Of a stretch of 64,000 nucleotides of DNA, positions 26,872-63,875 are shown piece by piece (within the stretch, counting starts at the first letter, position 1; each line of letters begins with the position of its first letter). Under the pieces are notes generated by a model. That model was not told where the DNA came from. It was given only the letters and a program-made list of their open reading frames with translations, and ran no database searches. Source of the stretch: an uncultured Verrucomicrobiales bacterium (lineage in GTDB: Bacteria > Verrucomicrobiota > Verrucomicrobiia > Verrucomicrobiales > DEV007); the NCBI GenBank assembly GCA_937891465.1, contig CALAHF010000020.1:1-64000 (forward strand). Reading direction: 5' to 3'. A program made the translations under genes and the position numbers.

Positions 26872-28713
26872 TTGAAAACAAAAAAATCACCACTAAATCG
26901 AGCTTTCTCATTTGCTGAACTCATGAGTGTTCTTGCAATGGTCAGTATTCTTGCCAGCGCGGGAATTTTCATCACTTCGAATATCAACAAATCTGTTAAA
27001 GAGCAGAAACTGAAGTCCGAAGTCGCGACGCTGAATTCAGCGGTCGCCAGTTATCTGGGATTTGGCGGAAATCTCGACGGTTTGAAGTCGCCCGAAGAGG
27101 CACTGGCGAAGCTTCGCTCGGTCGCGGCCTCAGACATGATTGATCGCATTCCGGGACTTTCTTCATCGATGGTTGATCCCCGAATCGCTGCAGTTGTTCA
27201 AACGAAAGAGCAGGCGAATTCCGCCGAACCTAGAGTGGTTTGGAATCCATCTAACCAATCTTTTGAAATCGCCACTTCCGGCACGGCAGGAATATCGTCC
27301 TTCTTTTTGAATTCCGAAGATGCAGAGATCACGAAATCCGAAGACAACCGCAATTTCGCTTTCCTCTACGCACAAAGTGATGGTTGGGTTTGGGACTATA
27401 CCGAAACATCAGCCAGCGTCACGACTGGTCCAACCCCTATTACCACTTACAATCCGATAACAATCGTCAATAACCCGACCCCGATCGCGGCACAGAATAC
27501 TGACGATGAGAATTCGAATGATCCCATACTTTCCCTGCTGCCGCCGGAAGTCTCGTATGCCGGTGGCTCCTATTCGATCTGCGACTACGATCTCGGAGTG
27601 ATGCTCTTTAACCCGAATCCATCCGGCTCATCCGATTTATACTATCAGATTAATTATGGTCGATGGAATCGCTTTGATTCCGGCAGCGTCATAGAAATAC
27701 AGCCCGAGACCACTCTCACGATTCAGGCCATCGGGACAAGTTCCTCATGGCTGGACAGCTCCCGCCCGATATACAGCTATAATGTCACTCCGGCGAATCT
27801 CAACGCTCCCGAAATCGTACAGTCATCTTCCAGGTTCGGAGTTTTTACGAACCGTCTCATTTCAGTCACTCTCGAAAATACCAACAGCGACGATCCCGGC
27901 ATCATGCAATACCGCATTGAGGACGAGCCGTGGACTGATTACGAAGAAATGTTTCTCCTTGAACGTCTCGATTACGAGGACGGAGTCGTGGTGGAGGCCC
28001 GGACGCTTTCACATCATCCGTATTATCAGACAAGCAATATCGCATCCAGCTCAATTTCGACCGAGCCGCTGGAGCTATCGGGAGCTGCCGAAGGACACTT
28101 CCATGATCCCGAAGGCGGCCGCAGAATGCGAACCAACCTGAGTTCGAAGCATCCGACAAACGACCACTTTGAATGGGGCTCAGCCAGCCGCAGCTACCTA
28201 TCAAAAAGCACGATGGATTTTGCAGGATTGGAAAACGATAACATTCATCTCGGAAACCGCTTTCTGCTTGGCGACCTCGATTACTACAACGGTCGATTCA
28301 GTTCCGGAACGGGGGCTGATCAGGTGAACCTGGCGATCGATCTCGCCTTTGATATCTCAGGTGCAGCCTTCACGACCTCATTCGATTATGAATTTGAATT
28401 GATCAACACGGTCAACGATAAAAACGACCTCTACGGCTGGGCTTCTGCCGATTATGTTCGGTTGGATCAATCCAACAGCTCCACCTTTTTCGAAATCGAC
28501 GGCCTAACATTCGAACTGGTTTTGGAATTCGGTGAATCGGTCTCTCCAGGATTTGCAACCTTCGACGAATTTCATGTAAAAGAGGAAAGCACCGCCTCTT
28601 CATCCCTGTATGCAACCCTCTTCGACCGTTCGAAGGCCGTAATCCCTTCTTCATCCAATACTGGCAACTCGAACGGAAAGAACGACAAAAAGAACAAAAA
28701 GAACAAAAACTAA
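26872..28713 (+). CDS. Orphan prepilin-like protein with choice-of-anchor K-like C-terminal domain
   Basis: This 613-residue protein starts (TTG) with a basic leader and a class III prepilin segment, FSFAELMSVLAMVSILASAG, with glutamate at the usual fifth mature position. The canonical Gly before the cleavage site is replaced by Ala (NRAFSFAE). A helical stalk follows (VATLNSAVASYLGFGG, shared with 54013), then beta-rich repeats. The C-terminal domain has FLLGDLDYYNGRFSSGTGAD, SADYVRL, IDGLTFELVLEFG and GFATFDEFHV, the pattern of choice-of-anchor K domains. It ends in a lysine/asparagine tail. It is a clear paralogue of the prepilin at 54013 but stands alone among pseudogenes. It is presumably assembled or exported by the 51-64 kb machinery. 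Confidence 0.75.
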   Translation: MKTKKSPLNRAFSFAELMSVLAMVSILASAGIFITSNINKSVKEQKLKSEVATLNSAVASYLGFGGNLDGLKSPEEALAKLRSVAASDMIDRIPGLSSSMVDPRIAAVVQTKEQANSAEPRVVWNPSNQSFEIATSGTAGISSFFLNSEDAEITKSEDNRNFAFLYAQSDGWVWDYTETSASVTTGPTPITTYNPITIVNNPTPIAAQNTDDENSNDPILSLLPPEVSYAGGSYSICDYDLGVMLFNPNPSGSSDLYYQINYGRWNRFDSGSVIEIQPETTLTIQAIGTSSSWLDSSRPIYSYNVTPANLNAPEIVQSSSRFGVFTNRLISVTLENTNSDDPGIMQYRIEDEPWTDYEEMFLLERLDYEDGVVVEARTLSHHPYYQTSNIASSSISTEPLELSGAAEGHFHDPEGGRRMRTNLSSKHPTNDHFEWGSASRSYLSKSTMDFAGLENDNIHLGNRFLLGDLDYYNGRFSSGTGADQVNLAIDLAFDISGAAFTTSFDYEFELINTVNDKNDLYGWASADYVRLDQSNSSTFFEIDGLTFELVLEFGESVSPGFATFDEFHVKEESTASSSLYATLFDRSKAVIPSSSNTGNSNGKNDKKNKKNKN

Positions 28714-51464: not shown

Positions 51465-53882
51465 TCAGTCCTCGGAAATGTTGATCGCAAGGCTCTCTGG
51501 TGAGCGTCGGCTGAGTTTCACTGCTTTGCTTTTTGCTGCCACGAGCTTCCACCAGGCGTCTGAAATTTCGCCTTTCATAGGAACGTCTTTCGTCTGGCGA
51601 AGGGTTTCGATCTCGCTGAGCAGGCGCTTGCTTTCGTCGTATGAGTTCCGAACCATCTGACCGTCGTCTGGTGAGAGGCGGCTGTCTCCGGCTGGAACTT
51701 TGCGAAGGTTTGCGTCGACTTTGTTGGCGCCGGCGATGATCTGCTGAGCTGCGGTGGAGCCAACGGAGGTCGCCTTAGGGCCATAAGCTTGTGCTGGAGC
51801 TTTTTTTGGAGCTGCAGCTACTTGTGGTGCTGGAGGTCCCGACTTCTTTGCTGCTTTGGCCGGGCTACTTGCTGGGAGAATTGGTATGTCGAGACGTTCA
51901 GGCAGGTTGAGGTGAACGACCTCACCCTGATTCGCAATCGAAGGATTCTGAGGGATGAACGACTTGTTGGATGCCGTGGCGAGTTCAGTAACGTTCGCGG
52001 TGCGCGCCGGGAGAACGGCAGGAGCTGTCGCTGGAACGTTCTTTCTACCAAAGATGCGGAGACCTTTGCGCTTTTGAGGAGGGGAAACGGTTGCTTCTGC
52101 AATCATTGCTTCCTCGGCAGATGCGTTTATCGGCGTCGCTTCAGCATAGGCTTGAAGGTCTGCGTTGGTCCGCTTTGGATAGGTTTGCTGAGTTCCTTCG
52201 TGAGTGAGGGGCTGCTCTTCAACCATTGGAGTATTCTTCCACGGGTCTTGAGTCATTGGCTTCTTAGGAACGCCTGGGTCACCCGGGTTCATCACAACAG
52301 GTGTGATGAGCATCATGAGGTGCTGATTCGATTGCTGCTTCGACTTTTTCTTGAACGCATATCCGAGGATTGGAATGCGGCCGAGAAGAGGGACTCCGGT
52401 TCGGTTGTCTTTAGTCGATGCTTTATCGAGGCCTGAAATGGCGACGGTGTAGCCGCTTTCAACGCTGATTGGTGCTGTGTAAACACGTGACGTTGCGATT
52501 GGGAACGGGTTGCCGTTGATTATCTCAGTTCCGATAATGTCAGAGACGGTAACGGAAACGTTGAGAAGCAATTTCTTGTTCGCCATGAGTTTTGGCAAGA
52601 TGTTGATGACGGTTCCGATTGGCACGTATTCAACAGAAGACGTGGTCGTTGCTCCGGCACCGAGACTGGCGCTGGCAGATGATCCGAGTACGGGCTGGTT
52701 TACAACTGAGCGGAATGAAACCTCGCGGTTATCGAGAGTCACCATCCGTGGGTAGGAAACGGTGCGGTTGCGCTGGTCTTGGAACAGAGCGTTCAAGCGA
52801 AGCTGCACGTCGTCGTATGAGAGGATTGCCGTAGGCAGCGCCGTGTCGCCGATTCGGGCGAGGTCGATGGCGGTGTCGATAAAGCCGACGCCGGGATCGC
52901 TTTCGCCTGCGTTTCCAACTCCGATGCCATAGCCTGCGTTACCATTGCTGCTGAGAAGGCCGGTCCAGTCAATACCCAAGTCCTTACGTGGGTTTTTGCT
53001 AATCTCGAGGAATTTTACTTCCACTGCGATAAGCGACTGTGGTTGGTCGGCTGCCGCGATGTAACCTTCGACCCACTGGTGCTGCTGTCGGGTAGCAACG
53101 ATGTAGAGTGTGTTTGCATCGCTGTTCCAGATCACTTTTGCCTGTGAAGCGGCATCGGCAGCGCCTTCGCCTGCTGCGCCGTTTTGACCGGGAACACCAA
53201 CAACGAGATTGGGCTGCCCTTGCATTCCGCTTACATTAAAGCGATTTACATTATCAACCGATGTGGTTGGTGCGAATGTCGCAGATAACCCGTTGGTTTG
53301 GAGGTCGAGGATGCCTTTGATGTCTTCGAGCAAGCGCGATGGCTCGGTCACGAAGAAATCCGGGGATCCCTGGAGGTCAAGTCCAATTCCGCCGCCTCCA
53401 CCACTGGAGTTTCCACCGAGTGAGCCGCCTCCTTGATCGTTTTTGCGAACGAGTTCCTGGGCATTGTAACTGATTTCATAGATCCGTCCGACGAGTTCCG
53501 TGTCGTCTGCGGGGCGAAGATACCAGATGTCGTTTTCAAAGATGAGGGAAATTCCGTTTGCTTTAGCAAGGGTTTCCAGAGCTTTGAAAGGACTGGCATT
53601 GATGGTGAAGGTTACAATACGGTCGCCACCAGTAGCACCCTCGGGAAGACCGAAGAATGAGATGCTGGCGTCTTCTGCCATAAGCCGCATGATGTCACTC
53701 AGGACGGCTTTGGAGAAGTTGTATTGACGGGGTGGAGCGCCACGAAGCCGGTTGGCTGCCTGTTCGTATGCAGGTGAGTTAGGGACGGCAAGTTGTGCCC
53801 CCAACTGTGCATACGTTGACTCAGGAGCAGCCAGTAGGCCGATCGCAAGCGCAATGATTGAAGCGTGAAGTTTAGTTTTCAT
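51465..53882 (-). CDS. Outer-membrane secretin (PilQ/GspD-like)
   Basis: Secretins form the outer-membrane channel of type IV pili and type II secretion. The 805-residue protein has a signal peptide (SIIALAIGLLAAPESTYA) and N0/N1-type domains (AVLSDIMRLMAEDASISFF, NGISLIFENDIWYLRP). The C-terminal secretin domain has PRKDLGIDWTGLL, RTVSYPRMVTLDNREVSF, VPIGTVINILPKLMANKKL and RVPLLGRIPILGYAFKK-like GVPLLGRIPILGYAF, then MMLITPVVMNPGDPG around residue 540. After this comes an unusual 260-residue tail, rich in Ala, Pro and Lys, ending in a helical segment. It is divergent from the prepilin at 54013 and is presumably part of that system. Confidence 0.88.
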   Translation of the reverse strand: MKTKLHASIIALAIGLLAAPESTYAQLGAQLAVPNSPAYEQAANRLRGAPPRQYNFSKAVLSDIMRLMAEDASISFFGLPEGATGGDRIVTFTINASPFKALETLAKANGISLIFENDIWYLRPADDTELVGRIYEISYNAQELVRKNDQGGGSLGGNSSGGGGGIGLDLQGSPDFFVTEPSRLLEDIKGILDLQTNGLSATFAPTTSVDNVNRFNVSGMQGQPNLVVGVPGQNGAAGEGAADAASQAKVIWNSDANTLYIVATRQQHQWVEGYIAAADQPQSLIAVEVKFLEISKNPRKDLGIDWTGLLSSNGNAGYGIGVGNAGESDPGVGFIDTAIDLARIGDTALPTAILSYDDVQLRLNALFQDQRNRTVSYPRMVTLDNREVSFRSVVNQPVLGSSASASLGAGATTTSSVEYVPIGTVINILPKLMANKKLLLNVSVTVSDIIGTEIINGNPFPIATSRVYTAPISVESGYTVAISGLDKASTKDNRTGVPLLGRIPILGYAFKKKSKQQSNQHLMMLITPVVMNPGDPGVPKKPMTQDPWKNTPMVEEQPLTHEGTQQTYPKRTNADLQAYAEATPINASAEEAMIAEATVSPPQKRKGLRIFGRKNVPATAPAVLPARTANVTELATASNKSFIPQNPSIANQGEVVHLNLPERLDIPILPASSPAKAAKKSGPPAPQVAAAPKKAPAQAYGPKATSVGSTAAQQIIAGANKVDANLRKVPAGDSRLSPDDGQMVRNSYDESKRLLSEIETLRQTKDVPMKGEISDAWWKLVAAKSKAVKLSRRSPESLAINISED

Positions 53883-54012: not shown

Positions 54013-55581
54013 ATGCCCTTAGATTTTTTGAATGCCATGAATACTGCCCCTCAAACTTTTAAAAGTTCTTTCCGTCGGAGAGGACAGCACGGATACAGCT
54101 TAATTGAGCTGCTTTCCGTGATCGGCTTGATTACTATTCTTGCCAGTCTTGGCTTTGTTTTTGCGACATTGATGATGCGCACGGCGCAGAAGAGCAAACT
54201 TGAGCAGGATGTCGCAACCCTGAATTCTGCAATTCGAGTTTATACTTCGAACGGCGATGATTTATCGGGGCTGAGCGCCCCTTCTGCCGTACTTAAAAAG
54301 CTGAAGACAACTCGAAGTAGCGCTGATCAGAAGTTACACACTGGAGCACCTTCAGGACGAATGATTGATCCACGAGTTGTGGCGCAAGCCGTAGCGGTGG
54401 CAGATTGGGAATCCCGTGCGGCGTATTCGGTAGCAAAACAGCAATTTGTGCTTGTCGACACAGACACTGCGGGTGTGCTGTTCGACCTGGATAAAAGTCT
54501 CAACGAGATGACGATTCCCGTAGAAACTCGAAGCCACGGCGCTGTTAATTATGCGAAAAATGAAACGTGGGTTTGGGATCATGGTTCACTCGCAAATCCC
54601 CATCGTCCATCTGGTCCAACGGGGCCAAATACACGAACAGCCCCGCCCAATTCAGACCCCGGAGCCGGCACTGGACCCGGTGCGGGTGGCGGTGGCGGCG
54701 GAGTAGGGGAGCCGGAACCAGAGCCAGAACCGGAACCGGAACCAGCGCCAGTGATTCCGCTTTTGCCTTATCCTCAATACGACAAACCGGGCGGAGCTCA
54801 TCTGGACACTGACTTTCCATTGACTCTCTCTCTCACTAATGTTCCTGATACGGGAATCGCGAATGCTTTGTTCCGCGTGGGTTCAGGTGCTTGGGAGCCT
54901 TATACCGTTTCCGTTTCGGTCCCGATGAACACGGCAGTTCGGGCTCAATATCGGGCGGTTGATCCAACTGCTTATAAAGACCGCTATACGAACTATAAAT
55001 ATTTCTATCCGATTGTTTCAAGCCTTTCCGGAAATGTTTCGGGGAGCTTCCATACTCCTGAGGGAGGAAACAATCTGGATACGACAATTTCGGAGGGCGG
55101 CAATTTTTTCTCTCACGGCAACCCGACGATAGACCTGAATGGAGAAATTATCGATGCCGGCGAGCCGAATACACTCCAGTTCAATACGGCAAATATCGCG
55201 GATGTGGCTCCCGGACAGCAATTCAAGATTGGCGATCTCAACTATCACAACGGAACGACGTTTAACGATTCCCACGCAACTGGAGTGACGCTCGAAGTTT
55301 CGATCGCGCTTCAAAACCCAAACCAAATCCTCACCTTCAATTTGGAAATGGAGTTGGTGAATACGGACAACTCTCTCGACGACGATGCGAGCGCGGATTA
55401 CGTTCGATTGACGAATTTGACTCAGCCTGTCGCCTTAAATATCAACGGCGTTGGTTACGAAATTCAGCTCGAGTTCGGTGGAGCCGACTCATTTGGATTT
55501 GCCACTTCAAACCAGTTTCACGTTTACGAGGGGGCCACCGGTCAAGGTGAGCTCCGTGCAACCTTCATTGCCGAGCCGTAA
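54013..55581 (+). CDS. Prepilin-like protein with choice-of-anchor K-like domain
   Basis: The 522-residue protein has a basic leader ending HG and a class III pilin helix YSLIELLSVIGLITILASLG with glutamate at mature position 5, so it should be cut by a prepilin peptidase. A helical stalk follows (VATLNSAIRVYTSNGDD), then a glycine-rich stretch and a (PE)n linker. The C-terminal half is a beta-rich domain with GSFHTPEGG, FKIGDLNYHNGTTFNDSHATG, ASADYVRLTN and NGVGYEIQLEFG, resembling choice-of-anchor K. An in-frame ATG at 54037 is an alternative start. It is divergent from the secretin and upstream of the PilT-like ATPase. I infer a large surface-exposed pseudopilin; the orphan at 26872 is its paralogue. 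Confidence 0.78.
   Translation: MPLDFLNAMNTAPQTFKSSFRRRGQHGYSLIELLSVIGLITILASLGFVFATLMMRTAQKSKLEQDVATLNSAIRVYTSNGDDLSGLSAPSAVLKKLKTTRSSADQKLHTGAPSGRMIDPRVVAQAVAVADWESRAAYSVAKQQFVLVDTDTAGVLFDLDKSLNEMTIPVETRSHGAVNYAKNETWVWDHGSLANPHRPSGPTGPNTRTAPPNSDPGAGTGPGAGGGGGGVGEPEPEPEPEPEPAPVIPLLPYPQYDKPGGAHLDTDFPLTLSLTNVPDTGIANALFRVGSGAWEPYTVSVSVPMNTAVRAQYRAVDPTAYKDRYTNYKYFYPIVSSLSGNVSGSFHTPEGGNNLDTTISEGGNFFSHGNPTIDLNGEIIDAGEPNTLQFNTANIADVAPGQQFKIGDLNYHNGTTFNDSHATGVTLEVSIALQNPNQILTFNLEMELVNTDNSLDDDASADYVRLTNLTQPVALNINGVGYEIQLEFGGADSFGFATSNQFHVYEGATGQGELRATFIAEP
54709..54744 (+). repeat. Pro-Glu codon repeat in the prepilin linker
   Basis: Six GAR-CCN codon pairs encode a (PE)n linker between a glycine-rich stretch and the C-terminal domain of the prepilin. 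The six-base units are near-identical and could change in number by slippage without shifting frame. Confidence 0.8.
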
Positions 55582-55640: not shown

Positions 55641-56732
55641 ATGGAAGGAATTGACGAAAGAAGCGCTCTGGGAAACCGGATTCTTCACCTCGCCCAGTCT
55701 CACAATATAAGTGATTTTTACATCACGCCCTGGGAGCAGCTGATTTACCGGAAGAACGGAGAAATGAATTTTGATTCATTTGTTTTTCAACCGGAAACGG
55801 CGATGGAAGTGAAACCTGGAACGATTGACTACGCCTGGCAGCTGGGACCGCTTCGCTTCCGTGTTAACCAATTGGTGACTCGTGGTCGTCTGCGTTGGGT
55901 CATGCGTTTGCTCCCGGATCAAATTCCGACTCCGGAACAAATTTCACTTCCTGCACAGGCGTTGAAATCCTACCTCGAAGCAGAGAATGGGTTGTTCCTT
56001 ATCTGCGGTGCGACTGGATCAGGTAAGTCGACCACCATTGCATCGATGATTGCGGCTCGCGCCGAACGTCGTCGAGAGCACGTGATTACCTTTGAGGATC
56101 CGATTGAGTACATCCTACCAACAAACCTTCCAACGCTGGTCACTCAGCGGGAAATGGGTTCGGACGATACGAATTTCGGCACGTCACTTCGAGCGGCCCT
56201 TCGTCAGGCACCTGATGTCATCATGATTGGTGAGATTCGTGATGGTGAGACTGCCGACATCGCCCTGCAGGCGGCTGAAACCGGTCACGTGGTCATTGCG
56301 ACGATGCACACCTCTTCGGCGGCTCAGACCGTTCAACGATTTTTGAAACTCGTTCCGAGTGACCGAATGGAAAACGCGATGCTTTCATTCGCGGATTCGA
56401 TGCGGATGATCCTTTGTCAGCAACTTTTGTATGATAACACCAAGGAACGTCGTTTCGGAATTCACGAGATCCTTTTCCCATACGATTCGGTGACTGGAAT
56501 GATTCGCCGAGGTGACTTCAAACGCCTCGATCACGAACTCGAAACAGGAACCACCAAAGGCATGCAGAGCTTCGAATACAGCATTGCAATGCGGGCCTAT
56601 GAAGGCTGGAAATCCGGCGCCCGGAAAGCCACCGGCTTTAGTGAACACGAGGTTGCCGAGTATTTACACCACGAGCGCACTCTTGAATCCGACAATCAGA
56701 ATTTACAACAGCAACCATCTACATCCGCCTAA
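55641..56732 (+). CDS. PilT-like secretion/twitching ATPase
   Basis: The 363-residue protein is a GspE-superfamily hexameric ATPase. It has Walker A CGATGSGKSTTIASM, an Asp-box FEDPIEYILP, IMIGEIRDGETADIALQAAETGHVV (Walker B) and a His box ATMHTSSA. The C-terminal MIRRGDFKRLDHELETG with GMQSF resembles the AIRNLIRE/GMQT region of the PilT retraction ATPase, and the size fits PilT rather than the longer PilB/GspE. The zinc-binding CxxC pairs of extension ATPases are absent. It is the only such ATPase in the window. It follows the prepilin by 59 bases. Confidence 0.82.
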   Translation: MEGIDERSALGNRILHLAQSHNISDFYITPWEQLIYRKNGEMNFDSFVFQPETAMEVKPGTIDYAWQLGPLRFRVNQLVTRGRLRWVMRLLPDQIPTPEQISLPAQALKSYLEAENGLFLICGATGSGKSTTIASMIAARAERRREHVITFEDPIEYILPTNLPTLVTQREMGSDDTNFGTSLRAALRQAPDVIMIGEIRDGETADIALQAAETGHVVIATMHTSSAAQTVQRFLKLVPSDRMENAMLSFADSMRMILCQQLLYDNTKERRFGIHEILFPYDSVTGMIRRGDFKRLDHELETGTTKGMQSFEYSIAMRAYEGWKSGARKATGFSEHEVAEYLHHERTLESDNQNLQQQPSTSA

Positions 56733-56737
56733 ACACC

Positions 56738-57604
56738 ATGGAATTTAAAGATATCAAAGACGTTCTGACGATGGCCGCTTTTCGGCCCGAAGCAGACAAC
56801 TCACGGTTTCCCTGGAGCAAACGCTTTCCAGGGAAGAAATCCGTCATCGTTAACGTTGGTCGCGGCCAGGTAAAGTGGGGGTTTCTCGATAAAAAAGGCA
56901 AGGTTGCCAACGAAGGAGTCGCTGACGGCGAATTCATGGATGTTGCTTCACAGATGGCAAGTGAGTGGCGTAGTCAAAGTGATGACGGTTGGATCGGTGT
57001 CTCGCTGAATAACCGGTTTATCATCAGTCTCGAGCACAACCTTTCCCGGACTCAGGGCTGGGAGGACACAATTCGAAATAATCCTAAATCACTCCTGGGA
57101 ACGAAACATGATCGAACGAAGCGCTACGCACTTCATCACAACCCGGAGACCAGCGCGAGTTTGGTCATGGCTTGCGATGATTCGTTGATCAAAAGCGTTG
57201 AGGAATCCATGCGGAGTCACAACCTTCGTGCAGCGAGGGTTTGCTGCGGATTGTTCGCAATGACGGGGCATCTTCTCAATCGGATCAACACAGACGCTAC
57301 TTTCAAAAAGCAGGAACTCATTGTTGTGACCTGGTGCGACGGCTCTCTTTGTGTCCTGTGTCAGAAAAACGGTCAGTGGCAGGAACTGCGTTCACGGTCG
57401 GGACTGGCTCCTGGAGATTCTTCAGCGGTCCAGCAGATGCTGCGGCCCTACATCGACGGTGCGTCTCCTGAAACACAGGTCGTATTCATGGGTGAAAGCG
57501 CTGAAAACGAATTCAAACAAAACTACTTCGACATGTTGGGCAACCTCCACGTGACCGATGTAACCGAGCCGCACCAACTCTGGAGCGTTCTTGGAAATTA
57601 CTAA
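56738..57604 (+). CDS. Probable PilM/GspL-like cytoplasmic pilus-assembly protein
   Basis: The 288-residue soluble protein lies directly after the ATPase (five bases). It has a beta-rich N-terminus (KKSVIVNVGRGQVKWGFLDKKGKV) with the look of an actin-like fold and a late region with LIVVTWCDGSLCVLCQ. Sequence similarity to PilM is not obvious by eye, so the call rests mainly on gene order before the PilN- and PilO-like genes. There are no transmembrane segments. It probably forms the cytoplasmic side of the alignment complex. Confidence 0.5.
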   Translation: MEFKDIKDVLTMAAFRPEADNSRFPWSKRFPGKKSVIVNVGRGQVKWGFLDKKGKVANEGVADGEFMDVASQMASEWRSQSDDGWIGVSLNNRFIISLEHNLSRTQGWEDTIRNNPKSLLGTKHDRTKRYALHHNPETSASLVMACDDSLIKSVEESMRSHNLRAARVCCGLFAMTGHLLNRINTDATFKKQELIVVTWCDGSLCVLCQKNGQWQELRSRSGLAPGDSSAVQQMLRPYIDGASPETQVVFMGESAENEFKQNYFDMLGNLHVTDVTEPHQLWSVLGNY

Positions 57605-57634: not shown

Positions 57635-58183
57635 ATGGAAAATATTATTCACGACCTTAAAACCGAGCGCCCGAATATCTCCGGGGGGCTTCCGGTCTTC
57701 TACAAAATCATTCCGATCGCCTTCTATCTTGCGGTTGTTCTTTCCTGCGTTCTTTGTTTGTTTTTCTTCATGAATTTTCGGCATCAAACGGCATCGAAGG
57801 AAGTCTGGCAGGGACGGTTAAATGCGGCGAATACTGAAAAAGCGTCCTTGATTGGAAAGCAGACTGAAATGGTTGGCACCGCGCAAAAAGCAGATGGTCT
57901 GGCCAAATGGCTTGAAGGCTCGCGTCCGATTCAGCCGGTTACGGTCGCGATTGGTCGCAGCATGACCAAGAATTCCACCATTGCTGAGTTGACCCTGGAT
58001 CGAAACCCGGAACTCCCGGCACATACGAACATGCAGCTCAAAATCAATGGTGGTGGCAGCGAGCAAATCGAAACCACACTCGATTCAATCACCGCCCTGA
58101 ACTTCCAAACCTATTCAGCAAACCAAACGCGGGGTCAAAACGCAATCGACTTCGAAGCCACCCTCATTTGGAACGATAAATAA
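57635..58183 (+). CDS. Probable PilN-like bitopic protein
   Basis: The 182-residue protein has a cytoplasmic N-terminus of about 28 residues, one hydrophobic helix (IAFYLAVVLSCVLCLFFFM) and a periplasmic helical then beta domain. This is the layout of PilN/GspL-type inner-membrane alignment proteins. The order PilM-N-O in the cluster supports it; no PilN sequence signature was recognised. It is 30 bases after the previous gene and has no Shine-Dalgarno sequence. Confidence 0.5.
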   Translation: MENIIHDLKTERPNISGGLPVFYKIIPIAFYLAVVLSCVLCLFFFMNFRHQTASKEVWQGRLNAANTEKASLIGKQTEMVGTAQKADGLAKWLEGSRPIQPVTVAIGRSMTKNSTIAELTLDRNPELPAHTNMQLKINGGGSEQIETTLDSITALNFQTYSANQTRGQNAIDFEATLIWNDK

Positions 58184-58204: not shown

Positions 58205-58741
58205 ATGAAAAATCACAAAATGGCATGCGTGCTTCTCGTTCTCCTCGTTGGAGCGATGTTCTTCGGAACGCAGAAAATGCGCAACCGTGCGGTCGTTGCC
58301 CGGGAGGCAGCGGAAAGCACCAAATCGAGTGCTGAATTGGCTGAGCAAGACAGACGGCTTGCAGAGATTAAATTAAAATCGTTGGAGGCAAAGACTGCTG
58401 ACCTTCGCCAAAGCTACGAAGTGTGGCTGCCGCATTTCCTGGCAGTTCAGAATCCCGAAGCCGCCGAGCAGCGCATTAGCGAACTCGTTCGTGCCGGTGA
58501 TATCTTTCTGCTCTCGCAAAAGTATGAAGAGCGGAAAATTGATCCTGATAGCATGATCTCCAGAGCACTCGTGGCGACTCTGGTTGTCGAAGATGACTAC
58601 GTAAAAACCATGAACTGGCTCGGCAAAGTTGAAGATCTCATCCCGTCTTGCCGCGTTGCTAAGTGCCGCATGATTCGCGGTGACCGTGGCGATAACATTC
58701 ACGTCGAACTCACCATCCAAGTCCCCGTGTTCGAAAGCTAA
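58205..58741 (+). CDS. Probable PilO-like bitopic protein
   Basis: The 178-residue protein has an N-terminal membrane helix (ACVLLVLLVGAMFFGT), a long coiled-coil-like stretch (residues about 35-75) and a ferredoxin-like C-terminus. This is typical of PilO/GspM-type proteins that pair with PilN. It lies 21 bases after the PilN-like gene. The call rests on size, topology and position. Confidence 0.5.
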   Translation: MKNHKMACVLLVLLVGAMFFGTQKMRNRAVVAREAAESTKSSAELAEQDRRLAEIKLKSLEAKTADLRQSYEVWLPHFLAVQNPEAAEQRISELVRAGDIFLLSQKYEERKIDPDSMISRALVATLVVEDDYVKTMNWLGKVEDLIPSCRVAKCRMIRGDRGDNIHVELTIQVPVFES

Positions 58742-58762: not shown

Positions 58763-59434
58763 ATGAAGACTAATAATTCTACATTTTTTGCCGCCGCCAT
58801 CATCACGCTTTCAACGATCGGTGGTCTTGGTCTCGCGCAAACTGCTGCAGTTCCAGCCGCTGGCGAAGCCGCGACCGGTCCCGATACCAGCCTCCTTTCG
58901 TCACGGACGATCGAGATGAAGCCCACTGATAAGCGTCCTTTGGGCGTAAATGATCAGGAGCGGAATCCTTATGCGAAGCGAACCGAAGAAGAGGAGGTCG
59001 TTGAAAATAGCGAAGACTCTCAGGAAAGCCGAATTCGTAACCGCCTGCTTACGATGCCAGTCGGCGGTTGTTCAATCGGTAAAAACGGTCGTCGGATTCT
59101 TGTAGGGGAAATCGTTCTCGAAAAAGGCCGCAAGGTTGATCCAATTCTTCCTGATCAGACTGAGAACTTGAAAGTTCTCGAGATCTCGGAGAACGAAATC
59201 AGCTTTGGTTGGTTAGACTTCGAAACTGGTGAATTGACCGGAAAGACCATGCAAATCGCTTACGATTTGAGTCCCGGAGTTCGCTCGCTCTTGCCCGGAC
59301 ACGAGGGTGAAAAAGGTGAACGACCAATGCGAATCATTCGGATCGATGAAGATCGCAAGCGCGCTGCTGAAGAATACAAGCGAATCAATCCACGTATGAA
59401 CCTGCCCGCAGGCGTTTATGAACGTGCTCAGTAA
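58763..59434 (+). CDS. Periplasmic protein in the position of PilP
   Basis: The 223-residue protein has a signal peptide (FAAAIITLSTIGGLGLAQ), an acidic linker (EEEEVVENSEDSQESR) and a small beta domain (RILVGEIVLEKGRKVDPI, LKVLEISENEISFGWLD). This resembles the HR domain of PilP/GspC, which binds the secretin. A charged C-terminal helix follows. It lies 21 bases after the PilO-like gene. Its sequence does not show a clear family signature, so the assignment is positional. Confidence 0.45.
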   Translation: MKTNNSTFFAAAIITLSTIGGLGLAQTAAVPAAGEAATGPDTSLLSSRTIEMKPTDKRPLGVNDQERNPYAKRTEEEEVVENSEDSQESRIRNRLLTMPVGGCSIGKNGRRILVGEIVLEKGRKVDPILPDQTENLKVLEISENEISFGWLDFETGELTGKTMQIAYDLSPGVRSLLPGHEGEKGERPMRIIRIDEDRKRAAEEYKRINPRMNLPAGVYERAQ

Positions 59435-59483: not shown

Positions 59484-60443
59484 ATGAACCTGAAATCTAA
59501 AAATGTAGTCTCCCATCAGGGAGGTTGGACCTTTGTTGAAATGCTAGTCGCAGTTTCGTTGTCCGCCATTTTCATGGGTGCGGCGGCACTGGTTCTGTCC
59601 AGTATCAATCACAATTCGAAGCGTCTCACGAGTCTTGTGGATGTGGACATTGGGTCAATCGCAAAGACGAATTTTTACGGACCAACTCCAAACGGAGAAG
59701 ATGTCGATGTCGTTCGTCCATACGCTGCTCCTAACTTCGGCCAGCTCCTGCAGGCTCAGGAAATGCGCAATGTCTTTGTCGAAGATTTGAACTATGCCAG
59801 TGCCTGCTTTGCGTTGCCTCGCAGCAATGTGAATACGGTAAGGCCAGAGTTCTTTGATTTTCCGTCAGGCACTTCCGGTGCTACTGCAGCACATCCCCAA
59901 CTGGATTCTCCGGAAGCATTTCGTGATTTCCTCGCGGTTATTGAGCCTGATTCGACTGGAGTTTTTGATACTGAAATCCGCAACGTTCCTCCAACAGCAA
60001 AACCCAGCGTGACAATTTTCATGCTTGGGGCGCTGACGCAGAGCGATTTTATACGAGTGAATGCAGTTTATGAAATCGACTTGGTAACCCCAACGGGGAA
60101 AACGGGTACCTATGCATCGGTCCGCCGCTACAAGAATAGCGTCTTGACCAACTATTACGACATTTACTACGCAGATGGTCCCGGGGACGACCTTTATCCT
60201 GTTTTTGTGGCATTCGAACGCCAGTCACGCCAGCTAATATCAGAATCCGCTGATATCGACCGCTTTAAAGTTTCTCCTGGTGCTCCGTTTTACTTCTTCT
60301 TTTTCCCGGATCCGGCAATCGACTTTAAAAGCAAGCCGGCATGGACTGCCGTTGACGCAGCGACTTCTCCTCGGGCTACCTATGAAAAAATGGCGGGCAA
60401 AACATCCTTCATGGTCGTTGCCCCCATGTTCCCCTCACTTTAA
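59484..60443 (+). CDS. Prepilin-like protein (minor pilin type)
   Basis: The 319-residue protein has a short leader and a prepilin helix WTFVEMLVAVSLSAIFMGAAA with glutamate at the fifth mature position after Gly-Gly. The rest is beta-rich and unlike the choice-of-anchor K prepilins. Such proteins form the tip of type II/IV pseudopili (GspJ-like minor pilin). It follows the PilP-like gene by 49 bases and is followed by a palindromic repeat. Confidence 0.72.
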   Translation: MNLKSKNVVSHQGGWTFVEMLVAVSLSAIFMGAAALVLSSINHNSKRLTSLVDVDIGSIAKTNFYGPTPNGEDVDVVRPYAAPNFGQLLQAQEMRNVFVEDLNYASACFALPRSNVNTVRPEFFDFPSGTSGATAAHPQLDSPEAFRDFLAVIEPDSTGVFDTEIRNVPPTAKPSVTIFMLGALTQSDFIRVNAVYEIDLVTPTGKTGTYASVRRYKNSVLTNYYDIYYADGPGDDLYPVFVAFERQSRQLISESADIDRFKVSPGAPFYFFFFPDPAIDFKSKPAWTAVDAATSPRATYEKMAGKTSFMVVAPMFPSL

Positions 60444-60504: not shown

Positions 60505-62133
60505 ATGAAATTTAACAACAACAAGACGCGTCAACGCGGGAGTATCCTCGTGATCTGCATGGTGCTGGCAGGACTGGGCACCATTGGGGTCGCTGCCTGG
60601 GCCTCGTTGCTTGATGCGCGAACTCACGAAGCCGAGCAAAGCGCCACAGCATTGGACCGACGCGTTCGTTATGGGAACAGCATTGGATTGGCTCGCGAAG
60701 TTATCTATCAAAGATATCTCCACGCGAATCGTGGCCCGACTTCGGATGATGAGATTTACTCACTCGAAAATGATTGGGGACTTGTTGAGATCGATGCCTG
60801 GACAGATCCTGTTTTTGGATACGATGCGACGACCCGGATCAATAAAACCGGGGCCGTCCCAAATCGGGCCTTCAGTCTGGATGTTGATGTAACTGTGGAT
60901 GACGGAGATTATCTTCATGATTTTACCTACCAACTGAAAAGCTACAGCCCGCTTCTGGGAGGAGATCTGATTACCGTTCACAAGAATGTAGAAACCGGTG
61001 ATGAGTTTGTTGAGGTAACCGGCGATTTAAAAGTCGAAGGCCGGATGAAATTGTGGAATGCCGAATATAAATCGTCAGCGACGACGACCTTGACTGACGC
61101 TGTTTTGGCTGCTGGGAAAACGCTTCCCAAGCTTCCGTTTAAAAATAGCAGTGATGCCAATGTTCTACCTTCAAACTTTCCCTTTGTGGCACAAACGAGC
61201 GGCGCCGTTGGAGGATCTGCTGAATTCAGTGGGAAATTGAATGTGGTGAACAACACCGGCACTCCATCGAATTCTTATGTCGCAAAAATTATTGGCTATG
61301 GATCCGGAACGTATGTCGCCCTTGATGGTTCCAGCTCGTCCGGTAGCGGCAGCGGTGCAGATACGAATCCCGCGACAGCTGATGATGCCGCGGTCCTGGC
61401 AATTATTTTGGGAGGAGGTTACATTTCTGAGAATTTGGCCCCTTACGCTCCGCTTTCATCGACGAACCTAAAGATGATCCTCGCTGACACTTCGTTGAAC
61501 GAGTCGGAAATGGCTTCCATCATGGCAGATAATCAACCGCTTCCGGATGACACGCTTGGCAATGTGGTTCAGTCGCCAGTGTTGACCGCAACGACTGAAA
61601 ATTCGGTTCTCGAAGCGGCAGGTTATCATGTGTTCACCGATTTTGGTCGTGTGGTCGTCAATCTCAATTCGGCCACGCTGCCTCACATGATCATCAACAA
61701 TGTCGGTGAGGTTGAATTCATCGGCCAGCCAGATGACGCTTCTGCTACTGCGCTCGAAGCGGAAGAGCCACGCATCATTGCCATCGTGAACGACCCGGGC
61801 GTTGAACTTCGGCGATTGGATTTCCGGGACTTAAATCGTCGCCGTATTATAGTAGGGGCTCACAACTCGAGGGTCGCTTCAAACAGCAGTTCGATAGTGA
61901 GCTTTTCGGGCGTTTCCACATTTCCTGATTGGCACATGCTGCTTGAACTGGAGGGGATTCGTACCAAATGGGACATGTCAGCCATCGGCGGAGTCCGGAT
62001 ATACGGGGGCATTCGCACCGATCAGCTCGTAAATGCTAAAAACGGTAGTCTGACGATTCGGAAAGAACCCAACGTGGATGTCCTCGAAACAATGGCGAGC
62101 CGCACGGCCTGGATTGAAACCATTCGCAAATAA
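60505..62133 (+). CDS. PilX/GspK-like protein with pilin-type N-terminus
   Basis: The 542-residue protein starts with a basic leader (MKFNNNKTRQRG) and a hydrophobic helix ILVICMVLAGLGTIGVAAW. The glutamate of prepilins is absent at the usual position, as in GspK/PilX-like proteins. A short Ser/Gly-rich segment (SSSSGSGSGADT) lies near residue 275. Its size exceeds GspK (about 320), and no catalytic motif is visible. It probably caps the pseudopilus, together with the proteins at 59484 and 62142. Confidence 0.55.
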   Translation: MKFNNNKTRQRGSILVICMVLAGLGTIGVAAWASLLDARTHEAEQSATALDRRVRYGNSIGLAREVIYQRYLHANRGPTSDDEIYSLENDWGLVEIDAWTDPVFGYDATTRINKTGAVPNRAFSLDVDVTVDDGDYLHDFTYQLKSYSPLLGGDLITVHKNVETGDEFVEVTGDLKVEGRMKLWNAEYKSSATTTLTDAVLAAGKTLPKLPFKNSSDANVLPSNFPFVAQTSGAVGGSAEFSGKLNVVNNTGTPSNSYVAKIIGYGSGTYVALDGSSSSGSGSGADTNPATADDAAVLAIILGGGYISENLAPYAPLSSTNLKMILADTSLNESEMASIMADNQPLPDDTLGNVVQSPVLTATTENSVLEAAGYHVFTDFGRVVVNLNSATLPHMIINNVGEVEFIGQPDDASATALEAEEPRIIAIVNDPGVELRRLDFRDLNRRRIIVGAHNSRVASNSSSIVSFSGVSTFPDWHMLLELEGIRTKWDMSAIGGVRIYGGIRTDQLVNAKNGSLTIRKEPNVDVLETMASRTAWIETIRK

Positions 62134-62141
62134 TTTCTCTC

Positions 62142-62591
62142 ATGAAAATCCTTTCAAAATCTAACAATTTCCGTCGTGGTGGATACACCCTTATCGAAGC
62201 GCTTGTTTCCAGTGCGATTTTATTGATCGGCATTGGTGCGGCGGCTTCCATGAGCCTTACGATGCTGACTCAGGAGGAAATCAACGAACGAACCGTTCGA
62301 GCGATGAACCACCTTGAAAACGCAGCATCTCTCTATCGACTTGGTATTGAGCCGGCCGATATCGAGGCACTTCTTCCACAGGAGCCAGCTGTCAATTCCC
62401 TGACGTTCAGCGGAAAAACCCAGACCGTCACGGGTATCGGAACGGTTCCTACGATGGAGATCACGATGGTATTTAAGCCCGCGAGCGCGCCAACAGCTTG
62501 GGGCAGTGAAAAAGCCGTGAGCGGTGATTCAACCGTAACCCGCTCACACACTGTCGAAGTTTTTCGCTCAAACCAGTACACGAATCCCTAA
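62142..62591 (+). CDS. Prepilin-like protein (PilV/GspI type)
   Basis: The 149-residue protein has leader RRGG and a pilin helix YTLIEALVSSAILLIGIGAAA with glutamate at position 5, followed by a short soluble domain. It is the right size for a minor pilin of the GspI/PilV kind. It follows the previous gene after eight bases and lies 60 bases before the PilC-like gene. Confidence 0.78.
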   Translation: MKILSKSNNFRRGGYTLIEALVSSAILLIGIGAAASMSLTMLTQEEINERTVRAMNHLENAASLYRLGIEPADIEALLPQEPAVNSLTFSGKTQTVTGIGTVPTMEITMVFKPASAPTAWGSEKAVSGDSTVTRSHTVEVFRSNQYTNP

Positions 62592-62651: not shown

Positions 62652-63875
62652 ATGCTAAAGAAAGTAAACCTGACGAACATCCACACGGGAAACAATTCCT
62701 CGTTGATTGTGGATACATTGACTGATGAGAAAGCAATCGTCGGTGCCGGTAAAACTGCTGTTGAGACAGCAAACATCACCGATGTTACCGGCTTTGATGA
62801 GACCCTGCAACGCTTCACCGGGAAGAAGAATTCGATGGATGACCGCGTCGCTCTCTTCAACGGTCTCGCGAAATGTTTCGACCGGAACATCCCCATCATC
62901 AAGAGTTTCGAGCTTCAAGCGAACCGCGTGAAGACTCCCCGTTATCGCGGGGCGATTGCTGACATTGCTGCTGACCTCGCCGCCGGTGAAAAAATTTCCG
63001 ATGCCATGGGAAATCAGAGCGATTTGTTCGCCGATGATATCATTGCCCTAATTCGTGCAGGTGAAGAATCAGGACGCCTCCCTGAAATTTTTCGTCGAGT
63101 CGCCTGTTCGCAGAAAAAGACAGCGAAAATCATCAAAAAGCTGAAATCTGGATTGATCTACCCGGCGGTGGTTACGGTGATTGCCGTGATCGTTGTTCTG
63201 GTAATGAGCGTTACTCTCGTACCCGCGATGGTGAAATTGTATGATTCATTGGGTTCAACACTTCCTAACGCAACGAAAGCCCTCAAAGCGCTTTCACATG
63301 TGCTTGTCCATCAACCATGGGTGGGCCTGATTCCAATTATGGGACTCGTCATGTTCTTCAAAAACTGGGGGAAGTTCATCATGATGCCAGCCGTTCAAAC
63401 GCTCTTTTTGAAATTACCTGTCGTCTCAGGAATTGTCCGAAAGTCGGCTGCGGCAGTTAGCTTCCGAACGTTGGCGCTATTGATCGAGGCAAATGTCCGA
63501 TTGACAACCGCCCTCGAAATTACGAGCGAAACATCGTGGCATCATGAATACAAAACGTTCTTTGATAAAGTGCAGTTTCACATCACAAATGGTCTGACGT
63601 TGCCCGACGCTTTCCTTATCGAGTCGCATCGATTGGGGCCGGATGGGCGAACCATTTGTGGACTGATGGAAGTTGCTGCTGAAACCGGTTCAGGAACAGA
63701 ACTTCTCAATGAGATCGCAGAAGACTATGAGGACGAACTCGATACGACCGCAAAGCAGATTGATAAATTGATCGAGCCCGTCACCATTGTGATTCTTGGT
63801 GGAATGGTCGGCATGCTCGTCTACGCAATTTACGCACCAATCTTCAGCCTCGGCGACGTTCTCCTCAAAAAATAA
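62652..63875 (+). CDS. PilC/GspF-like inner-membrane platform protein
   Basis: The 407-residue protein is the polytopic platform of type IV pili/type II secretion. Both GspF domains are visible: DDRVALFNGLAKCFDRNIPIIKSF with LIRAGEESGRLPEIF, then AVSFRTLALLIEANVRLTTALEI with GLMEVAAETGSG. Three membrane segments are present, two in the middle (YPAVVTVIAVIVVLVMSV; PWVGLIPIMGLVMFF) and one at the end (IVILGGMVGMLVYAIYAPIF). The first 50 residues are an acidic, non-hydrophobic extension. It is the last gene of the cluster and is followed by a strong terminator. Confidence 0.9.
   Translation: MLKKVNLTNIHTGNNSSLIVDTLTDEKAIVGAGKTAVETANITDVTGFDETLQRFTGKKNSMDDRVALFNGLAKCFDRNIPIIKSFELQANRVKTPRYRGAIADIAADLAAGEKISDAMGNQSDLFADDIIALIRAGEESGRLPEIFRRVACSQKKTAKIIKKLKSGLIYPAVVTVIAVIVVLVMSVTLVPAMVKLYDSLGSTLPNATKALKALSHVLVHQPWVGLIPIMGLVMFFKNWGKFIMMPAVQTLFLKLPVVSGIVRKSAAAVSFRTLALLIEANVRLTTALEITSETSWHHEYKTFFDKVQFHITNGLTLPDAFLIESHRLGPDGRTICGLMEVAAETGSGTELLNEIAEDYEDELDTTAKQIDKLIEPVTIVILGGMVGMLVYAIYAPIFSLGDVLLKK

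Follow-up and report, generated by a model that had tools for sequence, protein, structure and literature searches.

A modular prepilin with a choice-of-anchor K head of the adhesin peptide-binding domain family, encoded beside a type IVa-pilus-like machine in Verrucomicrobiales

The window, the whole 64,000-nucleotide stretch of Verrucomicrobiales DNA analysed here, encodes a 522-aa modular prepilin with a choice-of-anchor K domain at its C-terminus (K domain; the protein type is called K-pilin below). The K domain is of the same family and fold as the peptide-binding domain (PBD) of RTX adhesins. The gene (54013–55581, + strand; alternative ATG start at 54037) is flanked directly by a secretin gene and a PilT-like ATPase gene. 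The protein is probably a modular type IV pilin which displays a PBD-type adhesin head and is assembled by the adjoining type IVa-pilus-like machine.

The preliminary description of the window had read this 522-residue ORF as a class III prepilin helix with glutamate at position 5, followed by a (PE)n linker and a C-terminal half of the choice-of-anchor K pattern, and each of these features was confirmed. The NCBIfam prepilin motif TIGR02532 matched residues 25–47 with 18.5 bits against a cut-off of 16.3, while the Pfam N_methyl model gave 20.0 bits, slightly below its cut-off of 21.2. Prepilin cleavage was read as HG|YSLIE, which leaves a small residue at −1 and glutamate at mature position 5, the residue normally present there in assembled pilins. 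The mature pilin module (54094–54582) consisted of the hydrophobic E5 helix, the long alpha-1 helix and a small head ending at WVWDH, and represents a clade-specific N-domain. The linker (54583–54756) was the low-complexity sequence EPEPEPEPEPEPAP, predicted to be disordered (pLDDT below 50, model residues 172–223). An Ig-like domain missing from the preliminary description separates the linker from the K domain (55027–55548); it could be recognized at 54763–55017, roughly residues 251–335, by AlphaFold2 and by a weak OmpL47-type match (17 bits, below the cut-off).

The AlphaFold2 model, built from an alignment of 35 relatives, had a mean pLDDT of 82. It revealed a 50-residue helix (22–71), a small alpha/beta pilin head, the disordered linker and, in the C-terminal part, two confident beta domains which correspond to the Ig-like and K domains. 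A profile of the pilin family matched solved type IV pilins in the PDB (best E 2.4e-9). Invariant residues were found in every folded module across the 35 aligned proteins and the entire architecture was kept; this conservation, together with the predicted domains, indicates that the combination of prepilin and K domain is not a product of chance.

Choice-of-anchor K is named only after the way in which its proteins are anchored, and the domain is present in several phyla. In the 522-aa prepilin, the model NF038131 matched residues 339–512 with 82 bits against a cut-off of 30 (E 4.7e-23), covering 166 of the 169 model positions. The K domain modelled alone reached a pLDDT of 95.6. Foldseek searches with the full model and with the K domain alone placed the PBDs from FrhA and from the ice adhesin of Marinomonas primoryensis far above all other structures, at an E of about 1e-8 for the K domain model. 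VIA-align superposed the K model on the PBD over 172 residues with a Z of 18.7 and an rmsd of 2.6 Å, compared to a Z of 4.3 for the closest unrelated fold. A K profile searched against the PDB recovered the PBDs at E 1.7e-7, with the next match at E 0.24. Conversely, the Marinomonas PBD fragment of solved structure reached 82.4 bits in NF038131 (cut-off 30), a score equal to that of the 522-aa prepilin. This places the Marinomonas PBD within the choice-of-anchor K family. The five residues that are invariant in 54 K domains (G38, N82, N122, D131 and E175) were also present in the PBD. Sequence identity between the K domain and the PBD was only 16–18%, so the type of ligand and the calcium site may have changed. 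When the K domain of a PEP-CTERM protein was searched as a single sequence against the PDB, only short TPR-repeat matches appeared, and these were judged to be chance.

The PBDs of MpIBP/MpAFP of M. primoryensis and of FrhA of Vibrio cholerae (PDB 5k8g, 6x5v and 9y9w) have the same fold as the K domain, with a Z of about 18. They bud from a split Ig domain of giant type I-secreted adhesins (PMC12077191, PMC10865825), whereas the K domain is a contiguous C-terminal domain that follows the Ig-like domain of the pilin and is not inserted in a split Ig domain. The first hmmsearch alignment was ambiguous as to whether the K domain matched the split Ig domain or the PBD. The structural alignment formed a single contiguous block of 196 chain residues (206–401), which fits the ligand-binding domain better, and the match to the split Ig domain was rejected; judged from these lengths, the K domain is accepted as the counterpart of the PBD. 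The known ligands of the PBD are C-terminal tripeptides, with Tyr-Thr-Asp as the optimum, and the domain contributes to bacterial attachment to diatoms (PMC12077191, PMC10865825).

Most of the K proteins read from different phyla, or from the phylum's other families, were short proteins that begin with a signal and end in a PEP-CTERM-like tail. The choice-of-anchor K PEP-CTERM proteins of NCBIfam likewise share the domain of the K-pilin but are short and secreted, with the signal at the N-terminus and the sorting tail at the C-terminus. The K-pilins of the Verrucomicrobial clade carry no such tail, and their anchor is the prepilin helix at the opposite end of the protein. Hence the earlier statements that a K domain usually comes with a separate sorting anchor, and that its placement on a pilin is unusual, hold across bacteria. 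Within the clade, the second of these statements does not hold: nearly all K domains found in this lineage were on prepilins of one family. The idea of a rare fusion event was rejected, since the fusion is the rule there.

The pilin part defines this clade-specific family: its helix is conserved as DVATLNSAxxxYxxxGG, and it ends in WVWDY. Searching 57 related genomes with the pilin part and reading the ORFs recovered yielded 102 proteins, of which 50 carried the K domain. A scan of 45 members lacking it identified von Willebrand factor A (VWA) domains in nine, chitobiase/Ig-like domains in ten, DUF5122 beta-propellers in seven, cadherin-like domains in five and an ice-binding-like adhesive domain in one. 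Five genomes have, beside PilT, a pilin of about 1,250–1,290 aa instead of the K-pilin; the two of these scanned in full both contained a DUF5122 beta-propeller. A tree of the pilin part placed these five proteins together and the K-pilins of the operon slot in one group, and it required 17 changes between K and non-K heads, a count in which some truncated genes were scored as non-K. Such swapping of heads on one pilin part argues for the recognition of variable targets, and the pili of these bacteria probably carry interchangeable gripping heads.

Further members of the family were observed in diverse settings. Eight family pilins with K, Ig-like and other heads lie in tandem at about 20–46 kb of contig C289 in genome G009. 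Four very large members measured about 2,116–2,830 aa, and three of them contained about 20 Ig-like repeats. In the window itself, 26872–28713 (+) encodes another K-domain prepilin of the family, which contains two Ig-like domains; this orphan paralogue has a C-terminal tail rich in lysine and asparagine and is distant from the machine. A third K-pilin of the same genome (contig C40, ~30.1–32.1 kb; L033:8101–10100) contains an in-frame TAA at the prepilin cleavage region (GF*LVQ), which makes it a broken copy or an assembly error.

The chief alternative concerns the ligand of the head. It keeps the PBD fold and display on the pilus but gives the K domain a ligand that is not a C-terminal peptide, such as a glycan, a polysaccharide or a protein from the producing cell's own matrix. 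The low identity to the PBD would allow this, the heads found on this pilin part besides K are adhesion domains of a generic kind, and the NF038131 members elsewhere are PEP-CTERM proteins without an assigned ligand. The curated score, which makes the Marinomonas PBD a full NF038131 member, and the five invariant residues common to both domains stand against it. We consider this alternative unlikely, though deserving of serious weight, and favour a K head that binds peptides.

The genes around the K-pilin could be assigned to a pilus machine. The PilQ/GspD-type secretin (51465–53882, − strand; Secretin 112.8 bits) is the divergent neighbour on one side. On the other side, on the plus strand, lies the PilT-family ATPase (55641–56732), identified by profile and motifs with its Walker A, Walker B and His boxes intact. 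The direct adjacency of both agrees with the preliminary description. They are followed on the plus strand by a PilM-like protein (56738–57604), placed by operon position and matching no family, a PilN-like (57635–58183) and a PilO-like (58205–58741) single-TM protein, and a PilP-like exported protein (58763–59434). The PilM, PilN, PilO and PilP names follow position and synteny, none of the four having matched a family, while PilT, PilC and the secretin were named by profile. Next on the same strand are a minor pilin or pseudopilin with a GWTFVEM motif (59484–60443, profile searches), a PilX/GspK-like large minor pilin candidate suggested by its position and N-terminus (60505–62133) and a minor pilin with an N_methyl score of 26.3 bits, above the cut-off (62142–62591). 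The PilC/GspF inner-membrane platform protein (62652–63875, +) is the final gene of the cluster here. In several relatives, small pilins and PilB continue the cluster after PilC. In the genome of the window, contig C226 encodes four small pilins and a PilB with 69% identity to the linked PilB found in a relative; contig C204 carries a prepilin peptidase gene.

The presence of PilB and small pilins in the cluster of relatives, and on another contig in the genome of the window, makes type IVa-pilus-like system a better name for the machine than the pseudopilus of the preliminary description. The same genes bear on an alternative in which the K-pilin would be a pseudopilin of type II-like secretion: its K domain would catch exported proteins in the periplasm by their C-termini or tails, and they would then be pushed through the secretin by the pseudopilus. 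A secretin, PilC/GspF and GspG-like pilin signals are compatible with such a role, and a PBD-type head which binds protein C-termini could recognize cargo. However, the cluster contains PilT and a PilM-N-O-P-like order, PilB and small pilins are present in relatives and in this genome as just described, the alternative VWA, beta-propeller and cadherin heads are typical of surface adhesion, and no cargo genes were seen clustered with it. A secretory role is thus improbable compared to assembly into a type IVa-like pilus.

The linkage of the K-pilin to this machine was conserved. The full gene order, with the K-pilin between the secretin and PilT, was found in ten more genomes, which belong to two families of the order, and another two genomes had the same order as far as their contigs extend. 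Five near-complete genomes of another family of the order, which may stem from isolates, carry a K-pilin in this operon slot. A GTDB genome scan, conducted with close orthologues as the query, returned 17 Verrucomicrobial loci (seven already counted, to judge from the lengths of their contigs, and ten new), and the K-pilin adjoined machine genes in all 17. The arrangement thus occurs in about 22 other Verrucomicrobiales species, or about 23 counting the window, and the link between the fusion and pilus genes, on which the preliminary description had staked its proposal, is present in other species as the same secretin/PilT operon. All 26 genomes with a complete K-pilin also had the machine, as judged by the PilM-like gene. 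The pilin N-domain was present in 35/35 genomes with PilM and in 2/22 without it (Fisher p 2e-13, treating genomes as independent). In one of these two genomes, the contig breaks off at the expected position of PilT. Within the family of the window itself, the corresponding counts were 28/28 and 1/8 (p 1e-6, shared ancestry uncorrected). Numerous K-pilins of other species are encoded at a distance from the machine. In six other machine loci, the slot between the secretin and PilT was empty and family pilins were located elsewhere in the genome. A scan of viral contigs revealed no relative, and PHROGs gave no match.

Glutamate at position 5 and the glycine or alanine of the cleavage site were retained in nearly all members of the pilin family. 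Glutamine replaced the glutamate in eight members. It is very improbable that the prepilin helix is a mere inner-membrane anchor and the protein stays out of filaments, a reading to which members of up to about 2,830 aa, and members far from machine genes or with glutamine at position 5, would lend themselves, but against which stand this retention, the tracking of the machine by the pilin N-domain (35/35 vs 2/22 genomes) and the place that one pilin branch has retained within the machine operon of about 23 species.

Assembly as a displayed pilin subunit is therefore the preferred reading. The neighbouring type IVa-pilus-like machine would process the N-terminal pilin part and assemble it into the filament, and the flexible linker and Ig-like spacer would project the ligand-binding head outward. 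Surface display of the K domain, proposed in the preliminary description, is now better founded, since the domain belongs to a characterised ligand-binding family of adhesins. The subunit would most likely be located at or near the pilus tip, given its bulky head, and act there as an adhesin; the flexible linker would also permit a position in the filament body. The head would probably take hold of short peptides, perhaps C-terminal ones, in proteins at the surface of other cells or of detritus; a bound calcium may take part, and retraction by PilT would then draw the gripped target in.

Modular pilins with grafted adhesin heads, modelled at the pilus tip, are an established kind (PMC8179133). 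PilB (pilin and VWA) and PilC (pilin and lectin) of Streptococcus sanguinis combine a class III prepilin module with a C-terminal non-pilus module, as here, and their bulky heads are predicted at the tip, as proposed here (PMC8179133). The VWA head of the PilB kind also occurs on the Verrucomicrobial pilin part. In contrast to these streptococcal pilins, the Verrucomicrobial protein carries a K/PBD head together with a long disordered linker and an Ig-like spacer, its machine is diderm with a secretin, and it belongs to a clade-wide family with exchangeable heads on one pilin part. In the CofB/CofJ system of ETEC type IVb pili, CofB resembles the K-pilin in that additional beta-rich domains at the tip follow its pilin part, but it serves as the adapter of an adhesin which is secreted separately (PMC8179133). 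Choice-of-anchor K is not mentioned in the available part of this survey. A literature search returned no paper that connects choice-of-anchor K to pilins or to the PBD, and none that describes a pilin with a K/PBD head, a clade-wide pilin family exchanging its heads, or the identity of choice-of-anchor K and the PBD.

A wider interpretation is offered tentatively, as somewhat less than an even prospect: the clade-specific pilin part may serve as a socket for exchangeable adhesin heads, the commonest of which would be a receptor for free protein C-termini. Retractable pili would in that case hold on to the exposed tails of proteins on particles or nearby cells, and an exchange of heads would give a species new partners. 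The K, VWA, beta-propeller, cadherin and Ig heads on one pilin part form a natural series for studying how a pilus tip changes its target in a little-studied phylum. The placement of a solved and functionally studied PBD inside choice-of-anchor K makes the function of the domain testable wherever it is present. If the K head is indeed a receptor for free C-termini, this would provide a function for the whole choice-of-anchor K family.
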